From Terriglobia bacterium (GTDB lineage: Bacteria; Acidobacteriota; Terriglobia; UBA7540), in assembly GCA_030041095.1 (NCBI GenBank), contig JASHON010000106.1, forward strand, positions 1 to 64,000: DNA of 64,000 bases. Direction: 5' to 3'. Under the pieces are notes generated by a model. It was not told the origin of the DNA. It made no database searches and was given only the letters and a program-made list of their open reading frames with translations. Numbering within the stretch: the first letter of the stretch is position 1; every line of letters begins with the position of its first letter. The translations under genes were made by a program, and so were the position numbers. Positions 1 through 11,780 of this stretch are shown here, in pieces.

Positions 1-249
1 AAGCGGGCTCAACGCCTGGCCAAGAAACAGAGCCGCACCATGAGCGAGCTTTTCCGGGAGGGCCTGCGTCGCCTGGAGCAAGACGAACAGCAAAAGCCAC
101 TTGGCGAACTCGCGGGCGTTCTCCGGCTCATCCGGCAATCGGCCAGAAATGCGGGTCTCGATACGATGACGCCGGGTGAGATCGATGCCGAAGTTCAGGC
201 GGCCCGCCGGGAGCGCATAGCCAAGCTAGGATCATCCAGGAGAGGCTGA
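1..249 (+). CDS. Ribbon-helix-helix antitoxin, 5' end outside the window
   Basis: The frame is open from base 1, so the gene starts upstream of the window; the ATG at 40 is probably internal. The first visible residues (KRAQRLAKKQSRTMSELFRE) match the helix pair of MetJ/Arc/CopG ribbon-helix-helix proteins, with the usual SELFREGL-like second helix. The charged C-terminal part (about 50 residues) would be the toxin-binding tail. The stop lies 10 bp before a PIN-domain gene, the standard antitoxin-toxin order, so I infer autoregulation by DNA binding and neutralisation of the PIN ribonuclease. Family assignment rests on the fold pattern and the neighbour; the missing N-terminal strand cannot be checked here. 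Confidence 0.75.
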   Translation, partial: KRAQRLAKKQSRTMSELFREGLRRLEQDEQQKPLGELAGVLRLIRQSARNAGLDTMTPGEIDAEVQAARRERIAKLGSSRRG

Positions 250-1073: not shown

Positions 1074-4000
1074 ATGCCCAGAATTTTTGACAACATTGCG
1101 CTCTCCCTCCTTCCGGCGCTGTCTGAAACCCTCAAAATTTCCGAACGTGCTGACTTCTGTGTCGGCTATTTCAACCTCCGGGGCTGGCGCCAGATTGACC
1201 ATCTCATCGAAGACTGGCCCGGAGGCGACGGCGCTTGCTGCCGGGTGATTGTGGGGATGCAGAGGCTGCCCCAGGACGAGCTTCGAGCACGGTTCAGTCT
1301 AGTTTCTGGCCCAGACGGCATCGACGCACAGGCAGCGCAACGGCTCAAGAGGGCAGCCGCACAAGACTTCCGCGCGCAACTCACTATAGGAGCGCCAACC
1401 GACCAGGACGAAAAGGGCCTTCGGCGCTTGAGCGCACAGTTGAAAGCTCGGAAGGTTATCGTCAAGCTGTTCCTGCGACATCCCCTTCACGCGAAGTTAT
1501 ATTTGGCTTACCGCACCGATCCCAACAGCCCCAGCATCGGCTTCGTGGGTAGCAGTAATCTGACCTTCGCTGGCCTCTGCAACCAAGGCGAGCTGAACGT
1601 AGACGTTCTTGACCAGGACGCCTGCGAGAAGCTCCAGCGATGGTTTGAAGGCCAGTGGAACGACACCTGGTGCATCGACATCTCGAAGGAGCTCGCTGAG
1701 ATCATTGATACAAGCTGGGCGCGCGAGGAGTTGATGCCGCCGTTCCACATTTACCTTAAAATGGCCTACCACCTTTCTCAGGAGGCGCGCGCTGGCCTTT
1801 CCGAGTTCACGGTCCCCAGGGACTTCGGCACACAGCTTCTACCGTTTCAGACAGCGGCCGTCAGGATCGCGGCGCACTATCTGAACAAAAGAGGGGGAGT
1901 AGTAATCGGGGACGTGGTGGGCCTCGGCAAAACGATCATGGCGGCGGGCCTGGCCCGCATCTTCCAGGACGAGCCCTACTTCCTTGAGACGCTCATCATT
2001 TGCCCGAAGAACCTCATCCCACTCTGGACGGATTACGTTTACCGATATCGGCTCGCGGCAAGGGTAGTCTCGCTTAGCGCCGTCATCAATGAATTACCAG
2101 AAATGCCGCGCTATCGCGTTGTCCTCATCGATGAGAGCCACAACCTCAGAAACCGCGAGGGTCGCCGGTACAAGGTGATTCAAGAGTACGTCCAAAAGAA
2201 TGGCTCCAAGTGCATCCTGCTATCTGCCACCCCGTACAACAAGACCTATCTCGATCTCTCTTCTCAATTGCAATTATTTGTTTCGGCAGATCAGGATCTT
2301 GGCATCCGCCCAGAGCGGCTCATCAAGGAGCTGGGCGAGACGGAATTCATTCGCCGCCATCAGTGTCCGGTTCGCTCACTCTCCGCATTTGAGAAAAGCC
2401 TGCACCCGGACGATTGGCGTGACCTTATGCGTCTTTATCTTGTCCGCCGCACCCGGTCCTTCATCAAGGACAATTACGCGAAGACCGATCCGGCGAACGG
2501 CCGGAAGTACCTCACCTTTGAGGGTGGCGGCCGGTTCTATTTTCCTGAACGCGTTCCAAAGACAGAGAAGTTCCATTTCGACGAGCACGATCCGGGAGAT
2601 CAGTACGCTCGCCTCTACTCGGACTCCGTCGTAGACGCGGTGAATCATCTCAGGTTGCCGCGCTATGGCCTCGGCAACTACATTAAGCCCACGCCGCACG
2701 AACCGCCCACCGATACAGAGAATAAGGAAATCAGGAAGTTGTCGCGTGCCGGGAACCGGCTGATGGGTTTCTGCCGCACGAACCTCTTCAAGCGACTTGA
2801 GAGTGGAGGCCCGGCGTTCATTCAGTCTCTCGAGCGGCATATTCTGCGCAATTTCATTTTCCTCTACGCCCTCGATAACGACCTACCGCTGCCCATCGGC
2901 TCCCAGGGAGCAGAGTTTCTGGACGCGAAGCTAGGCGATCAGGATCTCGACGACCTATTCAGCAGCGGGGCAGAAGACACGGACGACAATGGCGACGCAA
3001 AAGGCGATGTTGCCGTCTTTATGTCAAGTGAAGTCGAATTCCGCAAACGAGCCACCGAGGCCTATCAACGTTACTCGACCGAGCTCCAAAGTCGGTTCAG
3101 GTGGCTACGCCCATCGCTATTCACCAAGAGCCTCGAGACGGACCTGGGGAATGATGCCAGGGCTCTCTTGCAGGTGATGAAGACCTGCGGGTCCTGGAAC
3201 GCGAGCAAGGATGCCAAGCTTGCCGCGCTCCAGGCACTTCTGACGAAGAAGTATCCGGACCAGAAGGTGCTCGTCTTCACCCAATTTGCAGACACTGTCT
3301 ACTATCTCGCACGCGAACTGAAGGCACGCGGCGTCGACCGGCTCGAGGGTGTCACCGGCGATACTGAGAATCCCACCGCTTACGCCTACCGCTTTAGCCC
3401 GGAATCGAGCGCGAAGCGCGACCCGGTGAAGCCAGAGGATGAACTGAGAGTTCTTGTAACCACTGATGTGCTCAGTGAAGGCCAGAATCTTCAGGATTGC
3501 TCAGTAATCGTGAATTACGACCTGCCTTGGGCCATCATCCGGTTGATCCAAAGGGCCGGCCGCGTGGATCGGATCGGTCAGAAGTCCGACCGGATTTACT
3601 GCCACTCCTTCCTCCCTGCCGAGGGCATCGAGCGGATTATCCGGCTTCGCACCCGCGTTCGCCAGCGTCTGCTCGAAAACGCTGAGGTCGTCGGCAGTGA
3701 CGAGTCCTTCTTCGAGGACGACATGGGTGAAGGGCCCATCCTTGATCTGTACCACGAGAAATCAGGGATTCTGGAAGAATCAGACAACGAGGTTGACCTC
3801 GCCTCATATGCCTACCAGATCTGGAAGAACGCTACCGATGACGACCCGAAGCTGGCGAAGCTGGTCTCGGAACTGCCCAACGTGGTGTTTTCAAGCAAGC
3901 CTCACACGCCTGCGCCTGACCAGCCCCAAGGCGTGCTCGTCTACATGCGAACGGCGGAAGGTAGCGACTCGCTGGCGTGGATCAATCGTGAGGGCGCGAG

Positions 4001-4454
4001 TGTGACGGAGTCCCAGCTTACAATCCTTCGCGCCGCAGAATGCAAAGCAACGACGCCGGCGGCACCGCGCCTTTCGGAGCATCACGAACTCGTGGAGAAG
4101 GGCGTTCGATACATGGTCAAAGAGGAGAAATCGGCGGGCGGACAGTTAGGACGGCCGTCCGGTGCGCGTTTTCGCGTCTACGAGCGGCTGAAGGCTCATC
4201 TCAACCGCGTGCGGGGCACGCTCTTTGCTACCCAGGACTTGGCAAAGGCGGTAGACCAGATTTATAAGTATCCCCTGCGCTCAGCGGCCGCCGACGCTCT
4301 CAACCGCCAACTGCGAACCGGAGCCAACGATCAGCAGCTCGCCGATTTCGTGGTGTCCCTGTGGGAACAGGACCGCCTCTGCTCGGTTGAGGAAGAGGCT
4401 GAAGCCCAGGAGCCGCAAATCATCTGCTCGCTAGGACTGAATTCTCAAACATGA
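1074..4454 (+). CDS. Phospholipase-D-like domain plus SNF2-type helicase (defence cassette)
   Basis: A 1126-residue fusion. Residues ~1-220 form a phospholipase-D-like domain with HAKLYLAY near residue 139 and GSSNLTFAGL near 158, the split HxK/GSxN signature of PLD-like nucleases. A SNF2/DEAD-like motor follows: Walker A VVGLGKT (Lys ~286), Walker B DESHNLRN (~353), SATPYNKT (~383), and in the second RecA lobe TTDVLSEGQNLQ (~795) and QRAGRVDRIGQ (~827). The C-terminal ~250 residues are not assigned. The adenine methylase follows by 56 bp. PLD-helicase plus methylase pairs belong to defence systems such as DISARM relatives and the predicted helicase-methylase-ATPase (Hma) type. All motor motifs look intact; the function in this cassette is inferred. 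Confidence 0.88.
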   Translation: MPRIFDNIALSLLPALSETLKISERADFCVGYFNLRGWRQIDHLIEDWPGGDGACCRVIVGMQRLPQDELRARFSLVSGPDGIDAQAAQRLKRAAAQDFRAQLTIGAPTDQDEKGLRRLSAQLKARKVIVKLFLRHPLHAKLYLAYRTDPNSPSIGFVGSSNLTFAGLCNQGELNVDVLDQDACEKLQRWFEGQWNDTWCIDISKELAEIIDTSWAREELMPPFHIYLKMAYHLSQEARAGLSEFTVPRDFGTQLLPFQTAAVRIAAHYLNKRGGVVIGDVVGLGKTIMAAGLARIFQDEPYFLETLIICPKNLIPLWTDYVYRYRLAARVVSLSAVINELPEMPRYRVVLIDESHNLRNREGRRYKVIQEYVQKNGSKCILLSATPYNKTYLDLSSQLQLFVSADQDLGIRPERLIKELGETEFIRRHQCPVRSLSAFEKSLHPDDWRDLMRLYLVRRTRSFIKDNYAKTDPANGRKYLTFEGGGRFYFPERVPKTEKFHFDEHDPGDQYARLYSDSVVDAVNHLRLPRYGLGNYIKPTPHEPPTDTENKEIRKLSRAGNRLMGFCRTNLFKRLESGGPAFIQSLERHILRNFIFLYALDNDLPLPIGSQGAEFLDAKLGDQDLDDLFSSGAEDTDDNGDAKGDVAVFMSSEVEFRKRATEAYQRYSTELQSRFRWLRPSLFTKSLETDLGNDARALLQVMKTCGSWNASKDAKLAALQALLTKKYPDQKVLVFTQFADTVYYLARELKARGVDRLEGVTGDTENPTAYAYRFSPESSAKRDPVKPEDELRVLVTTDVLSEGQNLQDCSVIVNYDLPWAIIRLIQRAGRVDRIGQKSDRIYCHSFLPAEGIERIIRLRTRVRQRLLENAEVVGSDESFFEDDMGEGPILDLYHEKSGILEESDNEVDLASYAYQIWKNATDDDPKLAKLVSELPNVVFSSKPHTPAPDQPQGVLVYMRTAEGSDSLAWINREGASVTESQLTILRAAECKATTPAAPRLSEHHELVEKGVRYMVKEEKSAGGQLGRPSGARFRVYERLKAHLNRVRGTLFATQDLAKAVDQIYKYPLRSAAADALNRQLRTGANDQQLADFVVSLWEQDRLCSVEEEAEAQEPQIICSLGLNSQT

Positions 4455-4510
4455 CTTCCTTCGCCTCTCTGGGGGAGAAGGGACGGCAATGAGGGGGTAA
4501 GTTCGCACCG

Positions 4511-7500
4511 ATGCCAGCCACTTATCAGAATATTCAAAAGAGGCTCCAAGCCTTCGATTTCACCGGGCTGTTCACCCAGGAACTGATGTGGAATTTCCAC
4601 CGAACCGGCGACTTACACATACCGGTCGAGGGAGTGACCTACGCGCTGAGACCGGTTGCGGAGCGTGGCATGGCAGTTTTTGAATGTGTCCCGCCCACAG
4701 ACGCCGAATTCCCGAAATATACCACGCGGCGCAAAATCGATACCCAGGTCTCAAGGACGGCACGCGAGCACATTATCATTTTTCACGATAACGCCAACAC
4801 CGTCCAGGTCTGGCAATGGGTGAAGCGCGAAGCCGGCAAGCCTTCGGCCTGCCGCGAGCAGTTGTTCTACAGGGGCCAGTCCGGTGACGCGCTCACTCAA
4901 AAGATTCAGGGCATCGCGTTCGAATTAGAGGGTCAGCCCACCATCCTCGAAACAGTAGCGAAGGTCGGTGCTGCGTTCGATGTTGAAAAGGTCACGAAAC
5001 GCTTCTATGACCAATTCAAGAAGGAGCATGACGCCTTCCTGAAGTTCACCAAGGGGATTCCTGACGAGAAGCTGCAACGCTGGTACGCCTCCGTAATGCT
5101 GAATCGCCTCATGTTCATCTACTTCATCCAGAAAAAGGGCTTTCTCGCCGGTGACCTGCATTACCTGACCAACAAACTGGGCGAGTCCAAACAGCGAGGC
5201 GAGGACAGATTCTATCGGGACTTTCTCTGCCGGTTGTTCTTTGAAGGCTTCGCCAAGCGCGAAGACCAGCGCGGCTCCGAAACCAACCGCCTGCTTGGGC
5301 GTGTTCCCTACTTGAACGGCGGCCTCTTCTTGAGGCACCAGATTGAGGAGCTGCATGAAAAGGACATCGAAATCCCGGATAGGGCTTTCGATCGCATCTT
5401 CGATTTCTTCGAGCAGTACGACTGGCACCTGGATGACCGCCCGAAAAAAGGCGGTAATGAAATTAACCCGGACGTTATTGGTTACGTCTTCGAGAAATAC
5501 ATCAACCAGAAAGAAATGGGAGCTTACTACACCAAGGAGGACATCACCGGCTACATCAGCCAGAGCACCATCATTCCGGCCATCTTTGACATGGCGCGCA
5601 AAGACATGAGGCCTGATCTCCGCCGGATCGCCTTCGAAGGCGAACAGACCGTTTGGCGGCTTCTCCAAGCCGATCCCGACCGCTACATTTACGCCGCCAT
5701 GCTCAACGGGATGGACAAGGAGCTTCCTGACTGCATCGCAGCCGGCTTGAACGACGTCAGCAAGCGAGGCGAGTGGAACAAGCCCGCCGGTGCAGAGTAC
5801 GCGTTACCCACGGAAACATGGCGAGAAGTCGTCGCCCGGCGTAGCCGTTGCCAGGAGATTCGCGAGAAGCTCAGGGCAGGCGAAGTTCGTTCCATCAATG
5901 ACGCCATTAGGTACAATCTCGACATCCGTCGCTTCGCTGAAGACGCAATCCTAAACGAAGAGCACAGTCCAGAACTGATCTGGTCGATTTACAAAGCACT
6001 CCGCAACATCTCCGTTCTCGACCCTGCTTGCGGTTCCGGGGCATTCTTGTTCGCCGCGCTAAACGTTCTTGCGCCGCTCTATGACGCCTGCGTCGTTCGC
6101 ATGGAAGCGTTCCTTGACGACCTCATGCGTTCCGGCGAGCAACGTCGCCCAGAGAAGATGAGCCATTTCCGTGGCGAGATCGAACGAGTTCGCGACAAAA
6201 GGCTTCATCCCAGCCCGCGCTACTTCATCCTGAAGTCAATCATCCTGAACAACCTTTACGGCGTGGACATCATGGAGGAGGCGACGGAAATCTGTAAGCT
6301 GCGCCTCTTCCTCAAGCTGGTCGCCCAAGTAACCCCAGGTGAGAAAATCGAGCCGTTGCCGGACATCGATTTCAATATACGCGCGGGCAATACCCTAGTT
6401 GGGTTCGTTACTCGGGCCGAGGTCAAACAAGCAATCGGTGGCAAGCTCGACTTTGACAACACACTCGAAGCCATCGAAGAGAAAGCTGCGTTAGTCGAAA
6501 AGGCATTCGGTAGGTTCCGTCAGATTCAGATGGATTTTCGAATGGACCCGGCGGAGTTCTCAGAGGCGAAGTCCGAACTTAGCGCACGTCTCGATAAAAT
6601 GCGGCAGGAACTGGACGGCTACCTGGCCGGAGAGTATGGCGTCAGGCAACAAGACAAGAATGGGCTCCAACGGTGGCAGCGGTCTCATCAACCCTTTCAT
6701 TGGTTTGTTGAGTTCTATGCGATCATGGCCAGAGGTGGATTCGACGCCATCATCGGCAATCCGCCATACGTCGAGATTTCGGATCTCGGTCAAGCCTACT
6801 CAATCAGGAATCTCCAATTGACCTCCACAGGCAACCTATACTCTCTTTTCCTTGAGCGATTCACCGCGCTTCTCGGTGGCGAAGGCCGTGTCGGAATCAT
6901 TGTGCCCGTCAGCTCGGTTTCAACCCCACGGATGTGTGCCCTGATGGGCCTGATTAGCAGAGCGTATTCACCCTTGCTGATCAGCAACTTCGCAGTCCGT
7001 CCAGGCAAGCTGTTCGTGGGTGCCGACATGAATCTGACAATCATGGTGGGGCGAAAGTCAAGCTCCGGCAATGGGGACGGCGACCTATTTACAACCGCGT
7101 ACAACAGGTGGACCACTGAGTGCAGACCATTTCTTTTCCCAACGCTCAGTTATCACCGCAGCGCATTCGACCGACAATCGAGCAGCATACCGAAAGTCGG
7201 ATCACCCATAGCGGTGACTATCATCGACCGACTCAGGACTCACCCGAACCTCGCCAGTTACCGGGCGTCCAACTCGGGAGACGTCGTTTACTACCACAGC
7301 GGCGGAAGGTACTTTAGGAAGTGTCTGCCCCAGCAACTTTCTAACGAATACAAGGAACTGAGAGTTCAAAAGGGTCTCGGCAAAGCTGCAATCGCGGTCC
7401 TCTCGTCATCTCTGTATTACCTCTACTGGATAGTGATATCCGACTGCTATCACGTCACCAAGCGTGACGTCGATTTCTTTCCGATGGCAAGCACACTGAA

Positions 7501-7750
7501 GGACGACAAAGAGGTCGGACGACTCGCAGATGCCTTGGTTGAGGACCTGTGGAAGAATGCGGAGACGCGGAGACGAGCGCGGGCGGATGGCACGATACAA
7601 AATGAGACAAATTTTAAAGTGGGGAAGTCAAGGGGCTTAATCGACTGCATTGACACGGTGCTGGCCAATCACTACAAACTTACCCCCGAACAACTCGATT
7701 TTATCACCAGCTATGATGTCAAGTTTCGCACGACCGACATCGAGCCGTAG
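4511..7750 (+). CDS. Eco57I/PglX-like adenine-specific DNA methyltransferase
   Basis: A 1079-residue class I SAM-dependent N6-adenine methylase. The SAM-binding motif DPACGSGAFLF lies near residue 504 and the catalytic NPPYV near 750, in the order of gamma-class amino-methylases. Between them is NNLYGVDIMEEATEICKLRL, the usual Eco57I-family core. The N-terminal ~330 residues, including EKYINQKEMGAYYTKEDITGY just before the core, resemble large single-chain methylases such as PglX. I see no clear PD-(D/E)XK nuclease motif, so this is probably a methylase only. It sits 56 bp behind the PLD-helicase and 24 bp before a zinc-ribbon gene, clearly in one transcription unit. It probably marks self DNA for the cassette. 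The frame is intact. Confidence 0.9.
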   Translation: MPATYQNIQKRLQAFDFTGLFTQELMWNFHRTGDLHIPVEGVTYALRPVAERGMAVFECVPPTDAEFPKYTTRRKIDTQVSRTAREHIIIFHDNANTVQVWQWVKREAGKPSACREQLFYRGQSGDALTQKIQGIAFELEGQPTILETVAKVGAAFDVEKVTKRFYDQFKKEHDAFLKFTKGIPDEKLQRWYASVMLNRLMFIYFIQKKGFLAGDLHYLTNKLGESKQRGEDRFYRDFLCRLFFEGFAKREDQRGSETNRLLGRVPYLNGGLFLRHQIEELHEKDIEIPDRAFDRIFDFFEQYDWHLDDRPKKGGNEINPDVIGYVFEKYINQKEMGAYYTKEDITGYISQSTIIPAIFDMARKDMRPDLRRIAFEGEQTVWRLLQADPDRYIYAAMLNGMDKELPDCIAAGLNDVSKRGEWNKPAGAEYALPTETWREVVARRSRCQEIREKLRAGEVRSINDAIRYNLDIRRFAEDAILNEEHSPELIWSIYKALRNISVLDPACGSGAFLFAALNVLAPLYDACVVRMEAFLDDLMRSGEQRRPEKMSHFRGEIERVRDKRLHPSPRYFILKSIILNNLYGVDIMEEATEICKLRLFLKLVAQVTPGEKIEPLPDIDFNIRAGNTLVGFVTRAEVKQAIGGKLDFDNTLEAIEEKAALVEKAFGRFRQIQMDFRMDPAEFSEAKSELSARLDKMRQELDGYLAGEYGVRQQDKNGLQRWQRSHQPFHWFVEFYAIMARGGFDAIIGNPPYVEISDLGQAYSIRNLQLTSTGNLYSLFLERFTALLGGEGRVGIIVPVSSVSTPRMCALMGLISRAYSPLLISNFAVRPGKLFVGADMNLTIMVGRKSSSGNGDGDLFTTAYNRWTTECRPFLFPTLSYHRSAFDRQSSSIPKVGSPIAVTIIDRLRTHPNLASYRASNSGDVVYYHSGGRYFRKCLPQQLSNEYKELRVQKGLGKAAIAVLSSSLYYLYWIVISDCYHVTKRDVDFFPMASTLKDDKEVGRLADALVEDLWKNAETRRRARADGTIQNETNFKVGKSRGLIDCIDTVLANHYKLTPEQLDFITSYDVKFRTTDIEP

Positions 7751-7774
7751 ACGCCCTATCTTGAGGAGACGACC

Positions 7775-7969
7775 ATGCCTGTGAAGCTACCGGAGCCGCA
7801 TTCTAAGAAGGAGGCTGGGAAGGAGACCATTCCTCTGTGGAGATGTCCCCACTGCCATGAGCTTAAAAGGATCGAGCAGTTCGGGTTCCGCTTCCGCCGA
7901 GACGCCTACAACAAGGTGAACATGTGGCAGAAGCAGTCGTGGTGCAAAGTATGCAGAGGCGAGAGCTAG
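7775..7969 (+). CDS. Small zinc-ribbon protein in the defence cassette
   Basis: A 64-residue basic protein with two cysteine pairs, CPHCHELKRIEQFGF and WCKVCRGE, spaced as a four-cysteine zinc ribbon. A GAGGAG ribosome-binding site lies about 7 nt before the ATG, and the gene begins 24 bp after the methylase stop, so it is a real translated unit. Its end overlaps the longest version of the next gene. Similar short zinc fingers occur near HNH or methylase genes, but I do not recognise a named family. A DNA- or protein-binding accessory role is only inferred from the motif and the context. Confidence 0.7.
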   Translation: MPVKLPEPHSKKEAGKETIPLWRCPHCHELKRIEQFGFRFRRDAYNKVNMWQKQSWCKVCRGES

Positions 7970-8616
7970 ACCGGTCACGCCGGCACATCGTAGCTGCTGG
8001 CACCCAAGCCGGCGGCGCTCAACGAAGCGTGCTTGTCGCGAGAACACTGCGTATCCTAGGTAACGCGGCTGACGCGCTGGGCGATGACCAATTGCTTGGC
8101 TGGAGGAAACTTGCCCTGATCTGCTCGCAAAAATGCCCCGGCGCCGTGATTCTGAAGATATACGATTTTGCCCGGCTGGTTCGCGGATCAGGCGTGGCCA
8201 TCGTGAGCGGCTTCCATTCACCCACTGAGAAAGATTGCCTGTCGATTTTGCTTCGCGGCCCAGGTCCCATCACCATTGTCCAGGGCCACCGACTAAGCAC
8301 GTCACGCCTGCCGATGAAGTGGCAGCAGGCCATCGACGCCGGACGCCTGCTTCTGCTTTCTCCTTTCAGCGATAAATATAAGCGAGTCACCGCGGAACTC
8401 GCCGCCGCGCGCAATCGCTTCGTCGCGGCGATCTCCGACGAGGTGCTGATCCCCTACGCCGCGCCGGGCAGCAAGACAGAAGCCCTGGCTCTCGACCTGC
8501 TCAATTCCGGCAAGCACGTGTACACTTTCAGCGACCGCCCGTGCCCGTTGCTCTCCGCCGGCGCCCAACTCGTCGCCCCCGAATTCTTCTCAAAGAACCA
8601 AATCTCGCCGCTCTGA
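7924..8616 (+). CDS. DprA/Smf-like Rossmann-fold protein
   Basis: The conserved part resembles stand-alone DprA-like proteins: KLALICSQKCPGAVILKIYD, then GVAIVSGFHSPTEKDCL (the SGxxS-like nucleotide or ssDNA loop), then GRLLLLSPFSD, and finally PGSKTEALALDLLNSGKHVY. DprA loads RecA on single-stranded DNA; orphan relatives are frequent in defence islands with undefined roles. The longest open start is GTG 7924, with AAGGTG 5 nt upstream, overlapping the zinc-ribbon gene by 46 bp. Family similarity only begins around GTG 8029, so a start there (195 residues) is a real alternative. The frame is complete. Membership of the same operon as the methylase is inferred from spacing. Confidence 0.72.
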   Translation: MAEAVVVQSMQRRELDRSRRHIVAAGTQAGGAQRSVLVARTLRILGNAADALGDDQLLGWRKLALICSQKCPGAVILKIYDFARLVRGSGVAIVSGFHSPTEKDCLSILLRGPGPITIVQGHRLSTSRLPMKWQQAIDAGRLLLLSPFSDKYKRVTAELAAARNRFVAAISDEVLIPYAAPGSKTEALALDLLNSGKHVYTFSDRPCPLLSAGAQLVAPEFFSKNQISPL

Positions 8617-8658
8617 ACTTCTCTCCACTTCTCCATCTGCGGCCGTACCGTGGATCGG

Positions 8659-9123
8659 CTAAAACTCTCCCTCCTCCTCACGAATTTTCTGTTCCCGGAA
8701 GCGACGATCGAGTTCTCGTACTACATCCTTAGCAAATGCGCGGAACTCCGTGTCAGGGTCCTGAGCCCATTCTTTTGCAACCGCTAAGTCTCTCGCGATC
8801 TTATTTGAATAAGGACCCTGCCAGAATCCCGTGACCATATTTGCGTACAGCTCATTCCAAACAGCGCTGTTGCCCCTGAATGAGAGCACCAGTGCTCGCG
8901 CGCGTGAATGCCGATTGCGTGGGTCAGGTGCGATGAGGTGTGCCACGATCCAGGGTCCACGAGGCTCGTTCGCCTTTGCCCAGGAGATCAGATGTTCGAC
9001 TGGGATCAGCTCCCCGTACCATCTCCACAGTGCTGTCAGAAGTGCCGATGACACTTCTCCTTCGGACAATATGGCTTCGCCAATTGCGTTCCACGCACCG
9101 GTGGGGTCCGCTTCCGTAGCCAT
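8659..9123 (-). pseudogene. C-terminal fragment of a HEAT-like (possibly defence) protein
   Basis: A 154-residue minus-strand frame convergent with the DprA-like gene. Coding-like sequence continues past the apparent ATG (LVELERRQALQ) until a stop at 9157-9159, so the frame is not naturally bounded and the 5' part is missing. The tail (FRAFAKDVVRELDRRFREQK, ending EEEGEF) and the preceding WAQDPDTE and WNELYANMV segments resemble the helical C-terminal ends of large STAND-like or uncharacterised HEAT-repeat proteins; that comparison is from memory. It abuts an opposite-strand ATPase fragment at a probable rearrangement junction. I interpret it as a stranded gene end rather than a functional gene. 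Confidence 0.45.
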
Positions 9124-9648
9124 TTGCAGAGCTTGGCGGCGTTCGAGTTCGACGAGCTACTCAAGAAGACAACGGCCCTCCTACTGACCGCCGGAATTAA
9201 GGATCTGATGCTCGCCACTAGTCGGTTCATTCTCGAGAAGGTTTATTCGGCCATGTTGATGGGCGGCGTTACTAAACGGCTACGGGTGATGGCCATTATC
9301 GATGAGGCGCACAAGCTTTGCGGAGAGGGAACCGTTACGGCGCTCATCAAGGAAGCCCGGAAGTACGCAATGGGCGTCATCTTATCGCCTCAGGAGACTC
9401 GCGATTTTCATCCCTCCGTCTTCGCCAACACAGGCACACTCGTCGGGCTGGCCCGGGAGGAAGAGGACGCTAACGTTATGTCCAGGTATATGGGTTTGAC
9501 AGACAAAACGGAACGAACGCAAGCAAAGGGACTGCTCCTCAACCAGGCTAATGGCCATGCACTGATTCGGTCACAGCATTTTCTGCCATACGCGCAGGTA
9601 AAGATACTCTCATTCGAGGACAAAATTAGGCGCAACGGCAAAAGTTGA
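9124..9648 (+). pseudogene. C-terminal stump of a HerA/VirB4-like (DUF87) ATPase
   Basis: A 174-residue fragment starting at TTG. It contains the second half of a HerA/FtsK-superfamily ATPase: Walker B VMAIIDEAHKLCG, then IKEARKYAMGVILSPQETRDF (the sensor/Q-like region), SVFANTGTLVGL, and a C-terminal wrap with FLPYAQVKI. Walker A and the whole N-terminal half are absent from the window, so it cannot hydrolyse ATP as it stands. Homology begins about residue 6 (FEFDELLKK). Upstream the frame stays open but runs antisense to the neighbouring minus-strand fragment. An ATPase would complete the helicase-methylase-ATPase set seen upstream, so this is probably the decayed third component. Confidence 0.75.
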
Positions 9649-9748: not shown

Positions 9749-10978
9749 TTAGCCGGTGACGGTTCCATCTTCTTTCAGGTAGGGCAAAAAATCTGAAGGA
9801 AACTCATTTTTCAGCATCCGACGCACAATGCACTTTGTCAGTGGCAGCCATCGGTTGACTTCCTCAGTGTGCAGCAGCTCGTCAGACGAAAGCGTAAGTT
9901 CCTCTCCTTCCAGCAGGCCTAGCGCGTGGCCTATCCGATCCCGTAAGGGCCTCAGAGTAGTAGCACTCACCTCGGCGACTGGCTTGCCCCGCGCCTCCGG
10001 CTGAAATATCGCGTCAAGTGACATAGCGTCCCACTCACGCTGGACGTGGAAAAGTGCCCGGAGCCATGGGACAAACTGACTCGGATCCGAGGGAATCACC
10101 TCGTCTGGGCGGCTGAATGTCTTGCCATCCCGGACGGCTTGTCGCTCGAGCCGTTTCCGCCGAGCACTTATGGCTTCGGCAATTTTGAAGAAGCAAAGGA
10201 ACTGATAAACGGCAGTGCTGTTCAACGCCTCCCGATACAAGCTGGCACAACCCCGGAATTCCTTATCGAGTAGCGCAAATGGCCTTATTGAGAGCGGTGC
10301 CTCCCGAAACGCGGTCACAATACTCATCTGCGTGTTTCCAGTCCTCAGTTCCTTGCTCTCGATCTGGAACACATGCAACGGAACGTCCAACTCGGCGGAC
10401 CACTTACTCAGCGATGTTGCCAGGGCACGATAGCATTTGCGCACACTGTCCATCAGGCTCTCGGCGCGAAATGGTTTCGATTTGATCTTACCTAGATACC
10501 CGCGCTTGTTCGGAAATCCGATAAATTCAAAATGCCCGTCTTCCGTGTTCCCGGCGATCAGTATGCAGTCGGCATTAGCATCGCCCGGCGGAGAAAACGC
10601 GGGTTTGGAGATAGCTAGGTGCGAATCGCCCTCCAACCCCTCAGCGAAGGAGTGCTGGTTCTCAGGAATTGGGCTGAAGCCGGGCCGGTTCAATACGAAC
10701 ACGCATTCATAGTCGCCAGGCAATCCCTTCGGAGCACCCAGATTCCTTGGGTCGCCGGGGTCTCGGTACTGGTTCACCGCCAAAAGATGCTGCGCTTGTC
10801 CCCCCAGCCCCATGACCTTAACATTGGCGCGCAGACTTGGATTCGAGGCTGCTGCTCTCGCCGTCCACGAGTCACGCGTTGGCTGCCGAGCGGCCGTTCT
10901 CGGCTGCCCGCCGTGGCAGTGCTTGTATTTCCTTCCGCTCCCACAGGGACACGGATCGTTCCTGCCGACCTTCCTCAT
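9749..10978 (-). CDS. SEC-C motif protein of unknown function
   Basis: About 409 residues with an N-terminal SEC-C zinc motif ([18 protein letters not shown]), as at the C-terminus of SecA and in many uncharacterised proteins. ATG 10978 is chosen because it places [12 protein letters not shown] at the very start, the usual arrangement; an ATG at 10990 adds four residues. The remainder (for example [20 protein letters not shown] and [18 protein letters not shown]) is not a family I recognise and has no membrane segments. SEC-C proteins of this size are common in mobile and defence islands. It is transcribed toward the ATPase stump and is separated from the tRNA by about 0.7 kb. Confidence 0.75.
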
Positions 10979-11476
10979 ATTCCCGAGCATAGCAGGCAGT
11001 CAGACCTTCGTCGGGCAGGTCCTCTGCATTTTACGGCTGACGGTCAACCGCGAACCTGAAACGCACACGGAAAACAATCCCGCCGCATGCTTTACCGTAG
11101 CAGCTATTCCCGAGCAAAAAAGCCAAAACTATTCCCACTGCGGGCAGCGCTTCCGATTCGTTCCCAGTCTGTCTCCCGGTTTAGCGAGCTCGGCCAGGTC
11201 CCCTTTTCCGCGCCTGTTCTCGCGGGCAGCGCTTCGGGGTCTTCCCTGCGCCCAGCGGACGCATGCTCGACTTCTCCCGCGCTGCGGGACCCCTTCGGGT
11301 TGCGGCGCCTCCAAAACAATCTCACGGCCAAACGATGGTTCATAAATGGCCATCGGATGGTTCAAACCATGCCGCCAGATTCTTTTGGTCCCTCCGCAAA
11401 AGCCGCCTTGGGAGCAGGACCCTCTCGCTTTTGGGTGCCCCGCGCGAAGCGGGAGCAGAAAACGGAGGATTCAAAA
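10979..11476. other. Gene-free stretch with short repeats
   Basis: No convincing gene. Open frames here have low-complexity, GC-biased translations and no ribosome-binding sites. The stretch contains a 14-bp direct repeat (gcgggcagcgcttc at 11140-11153 and 11222-11235) and a palindrome atggttcaaaccat at 11357-11370. It lies between the SEC-C gene start and the ssb pseudogene, so part of it should hold the SEC-C promoter, which I cannot pinpoint. Confidence 0.4.
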
Positions 11477-11686: not shown

Positions 11687-11780
11687 TGGCGGAGAGGGTG
11701 GGATTCGAACCCACGTGCCCGCTTTTGGCAGGCAAGACGCTTTCGAGGCGCCCCCGTTATGACCACTTCGGTACCTCTCC
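11687..11780 (-). tRNA. tRNA-Ser (anticodon CGA)
   Basis: The minus strand folds as a class II tRNA. The acceptor stem GGAGAGG/CCTCTCC has discriminator G and an encoded CCA (11687-11689). The D-arm is CCG...CGG. The anticodon stem GGCGC/GCGTC surrounds the loop CTCGAAA, giving anticodon CGA. A long variable arm follows (CTTGCCTGCC...GGGCA), then the T-arm with GGTTCGAATCC. The long variable arm and G discriminator are serine identity features. It decodes UCG. Its 3' end faces the accessory island, the usual orientation for integrase target tRNAs. Confidence 0.95.

Follow-up and report, generated by a model that had tools for sequence, protein, structure and literature searches.

Near the start of a contig from a Terriglobia genome we have found what is probably (about 0.7) an intact two-gene, ATP-dependent restriction-modification (RM) unit, composed of a helicase with a PLD nuclease domain and an N6-adenine methylase, and often accompanied by a DprA-like accessory protein. 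The window, that is, the whole stretch of DNA analysed (64,000 nucleotides of JASHON010000106.1, assembly GCA_030041095.1), opens contig 90 of a draft genome of 4.9 Mb that is 95.5% complete, window base 1 being also the first base of the contig. Conservation, gene order, motifs and folds were computed here, and from them we infer the enzymatic roles, the licensing of one protein by the other and the role of the DprA-like protein. The original prediction described positions 1074-9648 as a partly decayed helicase-methylase-ATPase (Hma)-like defence cassette of five genes. Its five plus-strand frames are all present, and the region contains the following features:

1074-4454, plus strand: PLD-SNF2 helicase, 1126 amino acids (aa), putative restriction and motor subunit (Pfam PLDc_2, RE_NgoFVII, SNF2-rel_dom, Helicase_C)
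4511-7750, plus strand: gamma-class N6-adenine methylase, BrxX/type IIG-like, 1079 aa (Pfam Eco57I, MmeI_Mtase; PADLOC PDLC03628)
7775-7969, plus strand: zinc-ribbon-like protein, 64 aa, with two CxxC motifs (CPHC...CKVC) seen in the sequence, in the slot between methylase and DprA-like gene
7924-8616, plus strand: DprA-like Rossmann (SLOG-superfamily) protein, 230 aa, at the 3' end of the operon (profile match, AlphaFold model)
8659-9123, minus strand: C-terminal fragment of an unrelated large protein, 154 aa (weakly similar to the ends of frames of 1216 and 1239 aa in other genomes)
9124-9648, plus strand: C-terminal fragment of a DndH/HerA-like ATPase, 174 aa (weak PADLOC matches to mad8/HerA/DndH; DptH and HerA in PDB)

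The assignments of the helicase, the methylase and the DprA-like protein are backed by Pfam and NCBIfam. The five genes do not form one uninterrupted run, because the minus-strand frame separates the DprA-like gene from the ATPase fragment.

The association of helicase and methylase is conserved far beyond this genome. A scan of 84,980 genomes with the window methylase retrieved 78 homologous loci (79 with the window) which, judging by record titles, span well over ten phyla (Acidobacteria, Planctomycetes, Verrucomicrobia, Chloroflexi, Cyanobacteria, Gemmatimonadetes, Latescibacteria, Nitrospirota, Armatimonadetes, Elusimicrobia, several proteobacterial groups, Firmicutes and others), the closest relatives being found in Acidobacteria. 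Of the 50 loci with enough upstream sequence, 45 had the helicase 5' of the methylase and read in the same direction, and in 30 of these 45 the gap between the open frames was no longer than 150 nucleotides. Helicase identity at these loci was mostly 51-73%; two matches reached 26%, and two others, at 36-38%, were short remnants of the C terminus. The distance matrices of the proteins were correlated (helicase-methylase r 0.57, helicase-DprA 0.74, methylase-DprA 0.62; 0 of 5000 permutations in each case). Among 247 sampled genomes of the same phylum, 12 carried the helicase at E <= 1e-100; within the same taxonomic family it was matched at E <= 1e-60 in four of 39 genomes, twice at full length. 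One family member preserves the helicase and the methylase, followed by a cargo gene of 605 residues and then by a DprA-like gene clipped by the contig end. Judged by sequence, helicase and methylase form a conserved and intact pair, and the defence nature and helicase-methylase core proposed originally are supported by this gene order. Two methylases of the family stand in tandem at four loci (L028, L038, L050 and L073), possibly for two target sites. Locus L141 is compact and consists of three genes. At another (L139:454-12726, plus strand) a divergent pair has the reversed order, methylase then helicase, and is followed by a 642-aa DUF262/GmrSD-like protein and an OLD-like/UvrD-like pair, making up a dense defence cluster.

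The helicase has an N-terminal PLD nuclease domain (PLDc_2, RE_NgoFVII) followed by the SNF2 motor. We could identify the PLD residues H139, K141 and SSN160-162 and, in the motor, the Walker A motif VGLGKT (282-287), DESH (353-356) and motif VI QRAGRVDRIGQ (826-836). Variation at H139, K141, N162, Walker A, DESH and motif VI is absent or nearly absent across 28-57 homologues, and the window protein is full length and retains all the catalytic motifs conserved in its relatives. Because the PLD residues are invariant, the nuclease appears to be under selection.

The methylase is also intact, with motif I, the AdoMet motif (DPACGSGAF, 504-512), and NPPY (750-753) conserved throughout its homologues, and with full length and all the catalytic motifs of its relatives kept. 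PADLOC model PDLC03628 (type IIG) matches it over the full length with 934 bits, and the window methylase and that of locus L002 score 934-950 bits. Mean conservation is lowest (0.38) at residues 801-1000, against 0.72-0.77 in the core, and this variable C-terminal stretch is probably the target-recognition region, since low conservation is as expected for such a domain. The AlphaFold model resembled CamA (Z 26), the type ISP enzymes LlaGI and LlaBIII (Z 22-24), BrxX (Z 22) and DrdV (Z 22), and the best whole-length Foldseek match was BrxX/PglX. The N terminus is an alpha-beta domain in which no D...(D/E)xK was conserved (residues 1-150, 43-69 homologues). With no nuclease triad conserved there, the PLD domain of the helicase is therefore left as the nuclease.

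A way to glimpse at the specificity of this family is offered by plasmid pSYSX of Synechocystis sp. PCC 6803, which carries a homologous pair. Its helicase, encoded by SGL_RS01585, is 52% identical to ours over the full length and its methylase, encoded by SGL_RS01600, scores 1565 bits against our family profile. PDLC03628 matches the pSYSX methylase with 2662 bits (1-1100 of 1100). The scores of the window and L002 proteins are far lower, a difference suggesting that the model derives from the pSYSX protein. This plasmid carries M.Ssp6803IV and V (PMC6604393), of which V is the type I enzyme slr6095-97 and IV produces GAm6AGGC, a one-strand modification detected at 1446 of 1451 sites (PMC7296061). 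Besides the type I enzyme, the pSYSX record has just one annotated DNA methylase, which stands beside the helicase; by elimination, the methylase of the pair is M.Ssp6803IV. Hence, it is almost certain that one member of the methylase family acts on a single strand of an asymmetric site of six bases. A VapC-type toxin-antitoxin pair lies between helicase and methylase on pSYSX, and DUF2513 after the methylase. Reportedly, GAm6AGGC was assigned to slr6050 in 2018 by Hagemann et al., and the gene is said to be essential. The plasmid (NC_005232.1) also contains a duplicated segment of ~24 kb (3505-27242 and 58222-81960, our loci L161 and L160), with mostly identical protein accessions.

Profile matches to the DprA-like protein were found in 44 of the 79 loci, window included, and its gene lies 3' of the methylase in 27 of the 47 loci where 5 kb or more of downstream sequence was available. 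The AlphaFold model (pLDDT 85, 41 sequences) matched DprA of Streptococcus pneumoniae and Helicobacter pylori and then the defence protein ShosA in Foldseek, DprA being the best PDB match (E 6.5e-10 to 3uqz). Within the family R163-N164, aligned with the RN motif of HpDprA, is invariant. This protein is not the housekeeping DprA, since it scores 30-31 bits against TIGR00732 (cut-off 191 bits) and the genome has a separate DprA, a 392-residue frame that scores 259 bits. Its annotated GTG start is uncertain and the conserved part begins near 8035-8060. At L130:9641-12351 the DprA-like gene stands beside another kind of predicted DNA methylase (identified by eye), and the PLD-SNF2 helicase is absent there, which suggests that the DprA-like family serves more than one modification system. 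At L003:13865-16827 (plus strand) it is directly followed by two genes, one for a TIR-domain protein and one for a protein of 512 aa with no Pfam match, which resemble a short prokaryotic Argonaute pair.

When the DprA-like gene does not directly follow the methylase, the gap is filled by unrelated genes. These include PLD, DarT with a macro domain (DarTG), HNH with MTaX1, OLD with UvrD (Gabija-like), a SMODS nucleotidyltransferase, STAND, TIR (matched weakly) and numerous PIN toxins. The stretch thus looks like a cargo slot for other defence genes, and its contents, full of defence families, give the pair a defence-rich context. The zinc-ribbon frame had no database match. A counterpart with 52% identity directly after the methylase of L007 was the only near one among the 78 loci, and the only other was a frame in genome G141 without a visible methylase, so we rejected it as a core part and treat it as slot cargo. 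The original prediction had named both the zinc-ribbon and the DprA-like proteins as possible extra components, and it is the latter that conserved gene order supports.

Read most simply, these observations point to an arrangement similar to that of type ISP/III enzymes but split, with a methylase that recognises and marks the site and a separate PLD-SNF2 subunit that moves and cuts. The methylase would read an asymmetric site through its variable C-terminal region and methylate one adenine on one strand. At unmethylated sites it would probably recruit or license the helicase, which would then translocate on DNA and cut the unmarked molecule with its PLD active site. There is one HxK motif per chain, so the PLD site would require two copies of the protein, as in the dimeric active site of BfiI. 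The DprA-like protein probably binds single-stranded DNA or the DNA ends made by the motor and may tune the nuclease or protect against it. A bolder proposal is that these genes represent a distinct, widespread class of translocating RM systems. Each would consist of a motor-nuclease of the PLD-SNF2 type, a gamma-class adenine methylase whose N-terminal nuclease domain has degenerated, and a DprA-like single-stranded DNA protein of its own, closing an operon that has inside it a docking slot for unrelated defence genes; we put this forward tentatively, at somewhat less than even odds.

Several observations weigh against the two-gene RM unit with its accessory. The N-terminal domain of the methylase could be an unrecognised nuclease, and the correlation between distance matrices is partly what common descent alone gives. 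No restriction or phage-defence test of any family member was found in the literature. The DprA-like gene is missing from about 40% of the testable loci, and none was seen near the pairs of pSYSX, Pelobacter, Rhodococcus and an Anabaena plasmid within the stretch read. In some genomes it is found alone or beside other genes; it may be a hitch-hiker, and because of this distribution we consider it an accessory, not strictly tied to the pair.

Another possibility is exclusion of the BREX type, with the methylase marking self and helicase and DprA-like protein blocking phage replication without cutting, the PLD being only a last-resort or self-directed nuclease. It would agree with the best whole-length structural match, BrxX/PglX being a methylase without nuclease, and HKD-SNF2 helicases are found in BREX-related systems (PMC12839542). 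We consider it unlikely, given that the invariant PLD residues indicate a nuclease under selection and that no window protein matches BrxC/DUF499, PglZ or BrxL; DUF499 (PF04465) had no match in the whole 95.5% complete genome and does not rank with the families seen most often in 226 neighbouring proteins. The methylase could instead be a self-sufficient type IIG enzyme with a nuclease in its own N-terminal domain, the helicase being a separate, co-travelling activity. PADLOC labels the family a type IIG restriction enzyme-methyltransferase, one VIA-align row aligns residues 2-1029 of DrdV with residues 4-1052 of our model, and the strand order of residues 17-92 in the AlphaFold model is similar to that of the PD-(D/E)XK core. 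Of the features of type IIG enzymes, an N6 methylase with its own target-recognition region and asymmetric one-strand methylation would be present, to go by PDLC03628 and by the homologue deduced to be M.Ssp6803IV; a nuclease active site in the same polypeptide was not found. The lack of a conserved D...(D/E)xK and the helicase adjoining the methylase in most loci make this explanation rather improbable.

There is very little in favour of a decayed Hma cassette with most of its ATPase gone, an explanation to which we give hardly any credence. Three protein types do stand side by side, and the helicase matches HmaA with 65 bits, a match confined to the shared helicase C-domain and lower than those to other families, C3a139 (142 bits) and DrmD (109 bits). 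HmaB is an m5C methylase (PMC8565338), whereas that of the window is of the N6-adenine type, and the ATPase fragment has no HmaC match. The fragment has the Walker B motif IIDEAHKL and no Walker A, as already noted, and matches HerA/DndH/mad8 models only, weakly. What it resembles are the C-terminal portions of DndH/HerA-type proteins, among them DndH-sized frames of 1665-1888 aa in four genomes of the phylum. Neither the fragment nor the minus-strand frame had a counterpart in the 78 loci, nor had the fragment a homologue in the 10.3 kb of sequence of the same-family locus (G003); elsewhere it gave two weak plasmid hits to ATP-binding proteins and four weak hits in the 247 phylum genomes, and none in viral contigs. 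The HerA ATPase expected as a neighbour by the original prediction is consistently lacking from the homologous loci, and we rejected it as a component. Being only a C-terminal end, back to back with another C-terminal fragment and without counterparts, the ATPase remnant is debris outside the system, as is the minus-strand frame, and the notion of a partly decayed cassette is not supported, helicase and methylase being full length. The two head-to-head ends at 9123/9124 fit a deletion of the 5' halves of two divergent genes, or the junction may be an assembly join.

The surroundings of the cassette contain:

1-249, plus strand: small frame clipped by the contig start
260-682, plus strand: gene with a PIN_3 domain
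11687-11780, minus strand: tRNA-Ser(CGA), a probable integration-site boundary of an island

The first two, directly 5' of the cassette, resemble a toxin-antitoxin pair. At 9749-10990 (minus strand) lies a gene whose product has a SEC-C motif at the N terminus and a MauJ-like domain at the C terminus. The tRNA was linked to tadA in all six family members checked, the DNA past the tRNA was different in each, and in a genome of the same genus a tyrosine recombinase directly adjoins it. From these three observations, the cassette probably sits in a tRNA-borne island with its left edge past the contig end. No repeat of the tRNA end of useful length was found within the window as an attachment site, and no Rfam family besides the tRNA was found near the cassette. 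The recombinase (L143:11875-13356, plus strand) also matches HSDR_N, the N terminus of type I restriction R subunits, an odd combination.

The pair is widespread, and yet neither the literature nor PADLOC, as searched, holds the helicase-methylase-DprA set as a named system; PADLOC labels the methylase alone. For one homologue, from a tractable model cyanobacterium, the methylation motif is known, which makes the restriction hypothesis directly testable. The conserved DprA-like partner, if confirmed, would give a role in a restriction-type system to proteins familiar from transformation and the ShosTA/PsyrTA toxin-antitoxin defences. With DprA, ShosA and PsyrA it has in common the Rossmann/SLOG fold and the RN motif, but it is shorter, lacks a SAM or winged-helix domain and falls below the NCBI cut-off for DprA.

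Hma systems are similar in having a helicase beside a methylase, and differ by their m5C methylase and a dedicated ATPase, HmaC (PMC8565338), neither of which is in the window. The M.Ssp6803IV locus has the same helicase and methylase families, differs by the VapC-type pair, DUF2513 and the lack of a nearby DprA, and has been treated in the literature consulted as a methylase and not as part of a helicase-nuclease system. PbeABCD/CxC-ABC (PMC10853773) has a similar effector combining HKD and an SF2 helicase (the PbeA model matches our helicase weakly), but is built on an ABC ATPase-DndE pair that is absent from the window cassette. The Type-2 BREX-related, DUF499-centred systems (PMC12839542) share the HKD(PLD)-SNF2 helicase fusion, the N6-methylase and a predicted RM-like logic, but they need the DUF499 AAA+ ATPase and nearly always DUF3780, and DprA is not mentioned for them. 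DUF3780 had no match in the window cassette and was not among the 25 commonest neighbour families, although it was not searched in all loci. The type ISP enzymes LlaGI and LlaBIII, whose methylase and target-recognition fold matches our model (see above), combine ATP-dependent translocation with one-strand methylation of an asymmetric site in a single polypeptide with a PD-(D/E)XK nuclease; here motor and nuclease are encoded as a separate gene and the nuclease is a PLD. All these comparisons taken together place the set as an intact variant of the ATP-dependent RM and BREX-related systems, with a DprA-like accessory.

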